Origin: Methanobrevibacter sp. TLL-48-HuF1
Lineage (GTDB): Archaea > Methanobacteriota > Methanobacteria > Methanobacteriales > Methanobacteriaceae
Direction: 5' to 3'
Length of the DNA: 64,000 nt
NCBI RefSeq assembly: GCF_023617305.1
Contig: NZ_CP081485.1
Span: forward strand, 796,501 to 860,500
A program made the position numbers and the translations under genes. Shown here piece by piece: positions 11,178 to 50,504 of this stretch (its first letter is position 1; each line of letters begins with the position of its first letter). The notes under the pieces are model-generated. The model saw only the letters and a program-made list of their open reading frames with translations, had not been told where the DNA came from and did not search any database.

Positions 11178-11960
11178 ATGAACATCGATTATGAAATTGT
11201 AGAATCAGCCAAAACAGAATTCAGCGAATTAAAAAATAAAAGATATCATCTGGACTACGTAGGTAAAACAAAAGACAAAATTTATATTCATATAGAATTT
11301 CAAGCAAGATTTCCAACAAAAAAGGAATTGCAAAGAATCTTCGCTTATGTCGCATTACTACATGAATACACCGGCTGTTTTGTTGAAACCTACATCATTT
11401 GTGTTCAAGCAATACCGAACGACCAGATTATCCATCAGTACAGTAAAGACAATGTTTTTAAAATTAACATCATGTCCTTAAAAAACATTGACGGAAATAA
11501 AAAAATAAATAGTATAAGTAAAAAAATAGAAAACAACGAAAAACTAACACCAACAGAAATACTTGCTTTGAAATTAATGCCGTTTACAAGCTATAAGGAA
11601 ACAACAGAAGAAATAACATTGAAAACTGCTCAATTAACCAATAAAATAACAACATTAACCATAGACGAACTTAACAACATCAAGTACATTCAACAGGCAG
11701 TATGTTCCAAAGTAATAAAAAAAGAACACCAACAACCAATAATGGAGGAAATAAAAATGAGAAACACACTATACGACCAAGCCAGAAAAGAAGGAATAAA
11801 AGAAGGAATAAAAGAAGGAATAAAAGAAGGAATAAAAGAAGGAATAAAAGAAGGAATAAAAGAAGGCAAAACAGAAATAACAAACGAAATAACAACACTA
11901 ATTCAAAAAGGAAAACTGCCTAAAGACACTTTAGACAAAATAACTTCCCTAAAAACATAA
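11178..11960 (+). CDS. Rpn/PD-(D/E)XK-family protein (transposase-related) with KEGI repeat tail
   Basis: A 260-residue protein of the Rpn-like recombination-promoting nuclease / PDDEXK transposase group. KIYIHIEFQARF fits the E-x-Q nuclease core strand, preceded by YHLDYVGKTKDK with the conserved Asp. The C-terminus holds six exact KEGI units and a seventh KEG. In-frame codons continue upstream to about 11104 (reading I-I-N-Y-H-I-L-D-I-T-L-K-E-I), right after the ribosome site AGGGGG, but there is no ATG, GTG or TTG there. The natural start may have been lost, or an ATC/ATT codon is used; otherwise ATG 11178 is the first standard start. Probably a mobile or selfish nuclease gene. Confidence 0.7.
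   Translation: MNIDYEIVESAKTEFSELKNKRYHLDYVGKTKDKIYIHIEFQARFPTKKELQRIFAYVALLHEYTGCFVETYIICVQAIPNDQIIHQYSKDNVFKINIMSLKNIDGNKKINSISKKIENNEKLTPTEILALKLMPFTSYKETTEEITLKTAQLTNKITTLTIDELNNIKYIQQAVCSKVIKKEHQQPIMEEIKMRNTLYDQARKEGIKEGIKEGIKEGIKEGIKEGIKEGKTEITNEITTLIQKGKLPKDTLDKITSLKT
11787..11858 (+). repeat. Six tandem 12-bp units encoding KEGI
   Basis: AAAGAAGGAATA is repeated six times exactly (72 bp) and followed by a partial seventh unit. Each unit is 12 bp, so gain or loss of units keeps the frame and only changes the length of a charged helix or coiled-coil linker. Confidence 0.9.
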
Positions 11961-12086
11961 AAATGATTCATAAAATAGGCTTGATAATAGCTAAATTATT
12001 AAGCCTGAAATTTTTTTAAATAAACAAAATATTTAATATTTGATAGCTAATATTATAATTAACTAAAAAAATGGATGTGTCAAAAT

Positions 12087-12500
12087 ATGGCTGAAAATAT
12101 TAAAACAAGTGTAGAAGAATTACGTAAACTTATCAGTATTGAAAATGTTGTTGGAAAACCTATTGATGCAGGAGACCAATTTTTAATTCCGGTAATGAGA
12201 ATGGGAGTAGGTTTTGGAGCCTGTGAAAACATACTGGGCAATGATGGAAATGATACTGTAGGTGCCGGTGCTGGTGTTGAACCTGTTTCCATGGTAATTA
12301 TTCCAAAAAATGCTAAAAGCGGAGAAGGAGTTAAAGTTGTTAACTTAACTAAAGGAACTGAAACCAACAAAGCATTGTCTGATTTAGGACTGATTGTGTC
12401 TGACCTTGTTAAAAATTATTTTTCACAATCTTCAGACGACTACGATGAATCAGAATATATTGAACCTGAGTTTACAACTACCGAAGAAGAAGACCAATAA
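12087..12500 (+). CDS. GerW/YtfJ-family protein
   Basis: About 137 residues matching the GerW (YtfJ) family. The sequence runs V-E-E-L-R-K-L-I near the start, then VVGKPIDAGDQFLIPV, a glycine-rich VGAGAGVEPVSMVIIPK and an acidic C-terminal tail. Bacillus YtfJ is needed for spore germination, but methanogens do not sporulate, so the archaeal role is unknown. The start is taken as the ATG at 12087 (MAENIKTS), the family-like N-terminus, 12 bases inside a longer frame. The next gene is a DUF2953 protein, the same pairing as ytfJ-ytfI in Firmicutes. Confidence 0.85.
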   Translation: MAENIKTSVEELRKLISIENVVGKPIDAGDQFLIPVMRMGVGFGACENILGNDGNDTVGAGAGVEPVSMVIIPKNAKSGEGVKVVNLTKGTETNKALSDLGLIVSDLVKNYFSQSSDDYDESEYIEPEFTTTEEEDQ

Positions 12501-12521
12501 ATTTTTTAAAAAAGGGATATT

Positions 12522-13100
12522 TTGAATACCATATACATCCTAGGAATGATTTTACTCTTAATCATTCTAATCATTATTATTTTTTTATATATGGGTCTTA
12601 GAATATCACTTAGCTTTGAAAAAACTGGAAGCAAGCTTTCAGCTATTGTTAAAATAAATATTTTTAAAAAAATAACTGTTTATAATTCTTCAAAAGAAAA
12701 AGAATCCGAAGAAGAAGCAGACGAGAAAAAAGGGTCTAAAAATTTAATGAACCCCCTTAAAAATGCTCTGCCTTACATTACAGATTTTTTAAAAAAAACC
12801 GCAAAATCCATTAAAGTTACAAAATTAGAAAATCATCTTAAATTTGGACTGGCCAGCTATGCAGATACTGCACAATATATTGGATATATCTGGGCAATTA
12901 ACGGATTTATTAAAACATTATATCCTGTTTCTAAAGTAAGTGCCGAACCTGTTTTTGGAGATCCTGTAATTGATTTTAAAGGATGCTTAGATGTTGATAT
13001 TAATCTTTTAAAGCTGATTTTGCCTGTTGTCAGTTTAATTTCCAAAAAAGAAATCAGGATTTTGATTAAGGCTTTTAGAGGTGATAAAAATGAAAGATGA
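12522..13100 (+). CDS. DUF2953 membrane-anchored protein (YtfI-like)
   Basis: A 192-residue protein with one N-terminal membrane helix (ILGMILLLIILIIIIFLYMG), a charged linker (residues 60-75) and the DUF2953 region with GLASYADTAQYIGYIWAING and FGDPVIDFKGCLDVDINLLKLI. The start is a TTG after AAAAGGGATAT. It follows the GerW-like gene by 21 bp and overlaps the ribosome site of the next gene. The function is unknown; the conserved neighbourhood suggests it works with the GerW-like protein. Confidence 0.75.
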   Translation: MNTIYILGMILLLIILIIIIFLYMGLRISLSFEKTGSKLSAIVKINIFKKITVYNSSKEKESEEEADEKKGSKNLMNPLKNALPYITDFLKKTAKSIKVTKLENHLKFGLASYADTAQYIGYIWAINGFIKTLYPVSKVSAEPVFGDPVIDFKGCLDVDINLLKLILPVVSLISKKEIRILIKAFRGDKNER

Positions 13101-13380
13101 TTTTTCAGGATTTGCAAAACACCAAAAGGAAAAGCTTGACAAATACTTCAAAAAGGATGAAGAGCTAACCTTTAAAAAAATAGCTGTTGGAGAGGATAAC
13201 TTTTATTTTATCTATAAATCAAAAGCAGTTATCTTAAAAGATAAAATAGCCAGTTATGAACTGATACCCCTCGGATTTATCCACAACACAGATGATGAAT
13301 ACTATTACTATTCATTTGACGGCAACTGCCAGGGGTATGAAGATATTGTAAAAAAATTTGTTGAAGAATGCCTTATTTAG
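13090..13380 (+). CDS. Hypothetical protein in the GerW-DUF2953 operon
   Basis: About 96 residues, soluble and charged, beginning MKDDFSGFAKHQKEKLDKYF. I recognise no family. The start at 13090 follows GAGGTGATAAAA, which lies inside the end of the DUF2953 gene, so the two are translationally coupled. Its last bases overlap the end of the convergent TPP-enzyme gene by 8 bp. Confidence 0.65.
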   Translation: MKDDFSGFAKHQKEKLDKYFKKDEELTFKKIAVGEDNFYFIYKSKAVILKDKIASYELIPLGFIHNTDDEYYYYSFDGNCQGYEDIVKKFVEECLI

Positions 13381-32170: not shown

Positions 32171-32793
32171 AATTATAATAATAACTATTAAATTAGGATA
32201 TAATATTCAAAAATTGAATTAAAATGATTTGCGCATATTAAAACAAAAACCATAGTTAAAATAACCTTAGGTTAATATGAATATTAGGAATAAATTTGTT
32301 TTTCTATATTTATAAAGGTTGTGTTAAAAAAGAAATTTTATTAAAATCAATATAATTTTTAACTTTAAAGTATATGAAAATTTCCATAAAAATAATTTTA
32401 AAAAAAAGACAGTTCAAAAAAAATGATTAAATAACACTATAAAACATGAAAGTAATACTTAATAATATAAAAAAATTAGAAAAAAATATACAAACTCTAA
32501 AAATATAACGAAATAACTAAAAAATGTACAAAACTATATAAATGATAAAAATCTAAATAACAATTAGATAGCAATAAAAATTGTGTTAATTGTAATAAAA
32601 ATTTTAAACAACAAAAGCTATCGGAATAATAGGCTGTCTTTACTGGCTGCCTATTATTTTCAGATATATTCTATTTTTTAAAAAGTGGTAACAAAGACTA
32701 TTTTTATTTTTAAGCTTTTTAAACCTATTTCAAAAATATTACCTTATAATATAAATAGTATTATTTTAATAATATAAATGTGAGGTCACAAAT
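32171..32793. other. Gene-free region upstream of rnp4 and of the PH-domain gene
   Basis: A 623-bp A+T-rich stretch. It should hold the minus-strand promoter of the rnp4 run near its left end, locus A in the middle, and the PH-domain gene promoter near its right end (TTATAATATAAATAG at about 32744). I see no protein-coding gene. Confidence 0.5.
32535..32680 (+). ncRNA. Candidate small RNA locus A
   Basis: A TATA-like TATATAAAT at 32535-32543 lies about 25-30 bases before an enclosing stem (GATAGC 32567-32572 with GCTATC 32617-32622). Inside are GTGTTAATTGTAAT (32583-32596) and ATTTTAAACAAC (32601-32612), both repeated exactly in locus B about 880 bp away. A second hairpin, AATAATAGGC (32625-32634) with GCCTATTATT (32649-32658) and a 14-nt loop, is followed by a T-run ending near 32678, fit for termination. 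No protein frame is seen. RNA status is inferred; strand is chosen from TATA and terminator placement. Confidence 0.5.
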
Positions 32794-33204
32794 ATGGCAT
32801 TTTTAGATAAAGTAATAGGTTACGGCGATGTAAGTTCAGATATGGAAAAAGACTATGTATCAGAATTCTTTTTTGAAGATGAAGAAGTAATTCAGTCATA
32901 TCAGTTTATAAGAGATCAGATAATTTTAACTAATTATGGAATCTATGAAGTAGATGTTCAAGGATTAAGCGGCAAAAAAGTAGAAGTTAAATTTTTCCCG
33001 AAAGACACGATTAAAACTATTTCATTTGAAACAGCAGGAACTTTAGACTTTGATGTAGATATTAAAATAGGTGTAACCAACAACACTGTTGTTAATGTAG
33101 ACGGAGCAGCTTATAGTGAACCATTATCATTTAAAGTACCTTCAGACCAAGCTGAAGAAGCAAAAGAAATTGTGCACCTAGTAAAAGAACATTATTTATT
33201 TTAA
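32794..33204 (+). CDS. PH-domain-like protein
   Basis: A 136-residue protein resembling bacterial-type pleckstrin-homology (bPH) domains: FFEDEEVIQSYQFIRDQIILTNYGIYEVD then KKVEVKFFPKDTIKTISFETAGT and a final helix AEEAKEIVHLVKEHYLF. These small soluble proteins have unknown ligands. A ribosome site GTGAGGT precedes the ATG. It stands alone between two RNA-like loci. Confidence 0.75.
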   Translation: MAFLDKVIGYGDVSSDMEKDYVSEFFFEDEEVIQSYQFIRDQIILTNYGIYEVDVQGLSGKKVEVKFFPKDTIKTISFETAGTLDFDVDIKIGVTNNTVVNVDGAAYSEPLSFKVPSDQAEEAKEIVHLVKEHYLF

Positions 33205-33375
33205 AGGATTTCTATAAATCCTATTCTATTTTTTACAAAAATAAAAATTTCAGTTTCACATTTAATTTTATTAAAGTCATATTAACAAAAAGTATTTATA
33301 CTTCTTTTTAGAATGTTTATATGATATCGAACAATATCACAGTTAAAAACTAAATAAATTGGGAATATTTGATAA

Positions 33376-33530
33376 TTTATAAAAAACTAAATATGTTTTA
33401 AATCAATAAAATTAGAGAAGTTTAGAAAGGTTGAATAAAAAATACTAACTATATATTGATGTGTTAATTGTAATTTAATGTTTAAATTTTATTAATAATT
33501 TTAAACAACGAGTTCTACTTCTCTAAATCC
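33376..33530 (+). ncRNA. Candidate small RNA locus B
   Basis: A TATA-like TTTATAAAAAA at 33376-33386 is followed after about 30 bases by TTAGAGAAGT (33412-33421), which pairs perfectly over 10 bp with ACTTCTCTAA (33517-33526). Inside are the same two blocks as locus A: GTGTTAATTGTAAT (33461-33474) and ATTTTAAACAAC (33498-33509), in the same order. The enclosing stem differs in sequence from that of A but pairs in both, which suggests conserved structure. The interior is longer than in A. Confidence 0.5.
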
Positions 33531-33676
33531 CATACAACACTATTTTCAAATAGAATAAACCAAATTATATTAAAATATCTTGTTTATGTATAGGCATATT
33601 ATATTTTTAACCCCATGTACTATTTAAATATTTTTATAAAAAACTACAGCACCTTATTTAAAAACAGGATAATTTT

Positions 33677-50394: not shown

Positions 50395-50504
50395 GCCGGG
50401 GTGGCTCAGCTGGTTAGAGCGCACGGCTCATAGGGTAATTAAGCAGTGCTCTGACTAATTCCTGGGATACCGTGAGGCCGCGGGTTCGAATCCCGCTCCC
50501 GGCA
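50395..50504 (+). tRNA. tRNA-Met (CAT), elongator-type, with 36-nt intron
   Basis: Acceptor arm GCCGGGG (50395-50401) pairs with TCCCGGC (50497-50503, one G-U), discriminator A is 50504, and no CCA is encoded. The anticodon CAT is 50429-50431 in stem CACGG/CCGTG. A 36-nt intron (50433-50468) interrupts the loop after position 37; AATTA and TAATT close to each intron end fit a bulge-helix-bulge. The T arm is GCGGG-TTCGAAT-CCCGC. The lack of initiator features (three G-C pairs in the anticodon stem) suggests elongator. A TATA-like TTTAATATATAAATG lies 10-25 bases upstream. RtcB/archease would seal the exons. Confidence 0.93.

Follow-up and report, generated by a model that had tools for sequence, protein, structure and literature searches.

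Two short intergenic sequences on either side of a PH-domain gene, locus A (32562..32625 with flanking bases, + strand) and locus B (33409..33532 with flanking bases, + strand), resemble each other in the window, the 64,000-nucleotide stretch of the complete 1.95 Mb genome of Methanobrevibacter sp. TLL-48-HuF1 analyzed here, and are restricted to this genome among those searched. As the simplest account we favor, at about even odds, a species-restricted local duplication of a short intergenic sequence whose two copies then diverged. We infer such a duplication and its possible direction from the comparisons described below, and neither copy appears to be under demonstrated selection. The gene between the loci (32794..33204, + strand) encodes a 136 aa bPH_1 domain protein (PF08000, E 2.6e-23), and its neighbors on either side are a gene for an Rpr2/Rpp21-type RNase P subunit and one for a P-loop kinase-like protein (AAA_18). 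The DNA around the loci has a G+C content of about 17%, and this AT-rich DNA around the PH-domain gene would have been the place of the duplication. Neither locus was mentioned in the literature retrieved by a search of open-licence papers.

Block comparison of the two loci revealed two exact matches, TGTGTTAATTGTAAT (32582..32596 in A and 33460..33474 in B) and AATTTTAAACAAC (32600..32612 in A and 33497..33509 in B), all of them on the + strand. The exactness and order of these blocks are as originally proposed, and their true lengths are 15 and 13 nt instead of the 14 and 12 nt initially reported. The gap between the blocks spans 3 nt in A and 22 nt in B. In a second register, the whole 31-mer of A can be placed without gaps on positions 33479-33509 of B, matching at 26 of 31 positions. 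A fit of A to B in two registers is to be expected after an internal duplication or deletion of small size, and may be counted in favor of duplication. After such a duplication, the spacing of the blocks would have come to differ by about 19 nt, and the part 5' of them by more, through a gain in B or a loss in A.

The likeness of A and B was evaluated with a chained-block statistic, in which exact blocks are weighted by their information content and chained within 60 nt. The A/B score (43.5) was not reached in any of 2000 dinucleotide shuffles, in support of the predicted paralogy of the two loci, and the pair ranked first when 378 pairs of natural low-GC stretches within the window were scored. 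This constitutes good, but not overwhelming, evidence of likeness, because the statistic was chosen after the blocks had been seen and after two simpler statistics had returned no signal: the score of a plain local alignment between A and B was reached by 362 of 1000 dinucleotide shuffles, and shared words of at least 15 nt arose in about 17% of 500 shuffles. The alternative that the resemblance is fortuitous, with AT-rich intergenic DNA readily sharing long words and the best-looking pair having been picked, finds some backing in the fact that two of the four statistics show nothing and that the runner-up among real pairs of the window scores 42.9. Nevertheless, the behavior of the chained blocks in shuffled sequence and the presence of an enclosing stem at each locus lead us to regard chance as an improbable explanation. 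The runner-up pair corresponds to two adjacent low-GC stretches at 11900-13300, with a score nearly equal to that of A and B, in which ORFs of 141 and 192 aa are present.

To delimit the distribution of these sequences, we searched the genome of origin and collections containing one genome per species. The first block, taken as a 14-mer, has exactly two exact sites in its own genome, corresponding to A and B, and a DNA search of this genome with the region of A returned, besides A itself, only weak fragments of B and AT-rich noise, with no third copy. Among 139 family genomes, the exact two-block pattern was confined to the one containing the window, and patterns with the spacing of either A or B, allowing up to 3 mismatches, retrieved only A and B in 67 genus genomes. 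Together with the chained blocks, the absence of a third copy and the confinement of the pattern to a single family genome would be consistent with a local duplication. Several candidate matches were discarded. BLAST searches with B against 60 relatives yielded AT-rich noise; on inspection, the best matches had no second block or no stem. With the two-block pattern shortened slightly, 40 matches were obtained in a general contig collection. Every record bore the title of a bacterium or an uncultured bacterium, none that of a Methanobrevibacter, and the matches were judged to be chance from these titles alone. A single pattern match in viral contigs bore no evident relation to A or B.

We also conducted a covariance-model search of the 67 genus genomes. 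Because MAFFT aligned the blocks in the second register, the query alignment was composed by hand, with 64 columns and the linkers of B omitted. The resulting model scored A at 83.7 bits, the natural B sequence at 25.1 bits and other matches at 24.5 to 32.6 bits. Nothing outside A was clear of noise (best E 0.018, in one genome), a silence that amounts to weak evidence, since natural B itself scores at noise level and B-like copies could be missed. Since neither the genome of origin nor the 67 genus and 139 family genomes yielded another copy, there are no homologs beyond A and B in which compensatory changes could be counted, and the proposal that A and B are members of an RNA family is not supported by these searches.

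Orthologs of the PH-domain protein were identified by strong matches in three other genomes of the genus. The sister species encodes a protein with 93% amino-acid identity, and neither A nor B is found near its gene. The nucleotide alignment with the sister species ends at 32330, restarts near 32752, and ends again past the PH-domain gene until about 34096, leaving unaligned stretches of about 421 and 890 nt here versus 64 and 300 nt in the sister species. Around the PH-domain gene, it is the intergenic DNA on either side that cannot be aligned, while the genes align, a pattern suggestive of local duplication. This duplication may have taken place in the lineage of this species, or else the copies may have been kept here and lost in the sister species. 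Nucleotide identity between both species is 98-99% to the left of the break, 87-89% in the PH-domain gene and 92% to the right; one inference is that the drop at 32330 may mark a recombination boundary, as a recent exchange of the left stretch between both species would leave. The two further orthologs (66-68% identity) lie in other surroundings, and nothing near them is convincingly related to A or B. The association between the loci and the PH-domain gene that had been envisaged is therefore not conserved in the sister species or beside these two orthologs. This lack of conservation also weighs against a role of the blocks as DNA targets of a regulator of the PH-domain gene or its neighbors, an explanation which we hold to be very improbable even though A and B lie on either side of a single gene and share their orientation.

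In agreement with the original prediction, the shared blocks at both loci are enclosed by perfect inverted repeats. An inverted-repeat search located a 6 bp stem in A (GATAGC at 32567..32572 and GCTATC at 32617..32622) and a 10 bp stem in B (TTAGAGAAGT at 33412..33421 and ACTTCTCTAA at 33517..33526), all on the + strand. The A stem was equalled or bettered in 23 of 2000 shuffles with 30-nt flanks and in 78 of 2000 with 60-nt flanks. For the B stem, the corresponding count with 60-nt flanks was 9 of 2000, its arm lying too far out for 30-nt flanks to include it. Hence, the stems are individually uncommon, at about 1-4% for A and 0.5% for B. The TATA-like words noted upstream of the loci (TATATAAA at 32535..32542 before A and TTTATAAAA at 33376..33384 before B, both on the + strand and read from the sequence) do occur upstream of the stems, at distances of 32 and 36 nt, but they do not stand out as signals, given that such words are about as frequent as in shuffled sequences (8 observed versus 9.8 expected, and 16 versus 13.0).

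The claim that differences between the two stems reflect covariation could not be established, because pair changes between only two sequences cannot count as such, and because the stems differ in length (6 versus 10 pairs) and in the distance from the 5' arm to the first block (15 nt in A versus 48 nt in B); the second block and the 3' arm are separated by 5 nt in A and 8 nt in B. When the 5' AATTAGA words are placed in register and the linkers of B are omitted, all six pairs form in both loci and three of them differ on both sides, a proportion of two-sided changes equalled by 61 of 500 shuffles for two sequences in a register of our own choosing.

Directly 3' of A, and before the PH-domain gene, lies a strong hairpin that was not part of the original prediction (32623..32660, + strand; -17.6 kcal/mol, z -5.54, equalled in 0 of 200 shuffles). 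The hairpin was not called as a terminator in a consensus scan, no T-run being accepted, and no second copy was seen in the own-genome DNA search with the region of A. The uncommon inverted repeats, one enclosing each locus, and the strong hairpin after A argue against a simple duplication, since decaying duplicates need neither. They bear instead on the possibility, which we consider less likely, that A and B each encode a small RNA and form a pair of recent, species-private paralogs closed by their stems, with A ending at the hairpin. This explanation accommodates the stems surrounding both cores, the pairs formed in the AATTAGA register and the folding of A together with its hairpin, which is better than that of 200 shuffles (z -4.62), albeit mostly owing to the hairpin. 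In contrast, taken as single RNA strands, the cores of A and B gain little in folding over shuffles (z -1.86 and -1.56), and the - strand gives the better fold for B (z -3.40), so that either strand might be the relevant one. Moreover, no comparable hairpin follows B, the pair register was ours and disregards the linkers of B, and no homologs were found in the family and genus genomes. The more specific scenario of a young, species-restricted small RNA gene pair, duplicated around the PH-domain gene, in which stem pairs were exchanged while two unpaired core blocks were kept, appears unlikely.

Like the intergenic methanogen small RNAs sRNA154 and sRNA162 of Methanosarcina mazei (reviewed in PMC3600222), A and B are short, intergenic and devoid of a long reading frame. 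In contrast with these small RNAs, which were found as transcripts, A and B are known here from DNA sequence alone. Were they transcribed, they would illustrate on a small scale how new RNA genes can emerge within a single archaeal lineage. Otherwise, they call for caution: in DNA of this base composition, short stems, TATA-like words and words common to two sites arise readily, and covariation cannot be demonstrated from two copies.

A and B share with MITE-like non-autonomous elements their small size, AT-rich composition and bounding inverted repeats. Whereas such elements would be expected to occur in multiple copies whose terminal inverted repeats are alike, the arms of A differ from those of B, and searches of the own genome found no third copy.

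In searches against Rfam 15, A and B had no family match at the curated threshold (even the best matches, with E 2.5 to 4.2, fell far short of it), and the only match above threshold in the window was a tRNA elsewhere. This tRNA model matches over 110 nt at 50395-50504 (+ strand, 58.6 bits), while ARAGORN with default settings reported none anywhere in the window. Both the Rfam match and the silence of ARAGORN would be explained if the tRNA gene at this position contained an intron.
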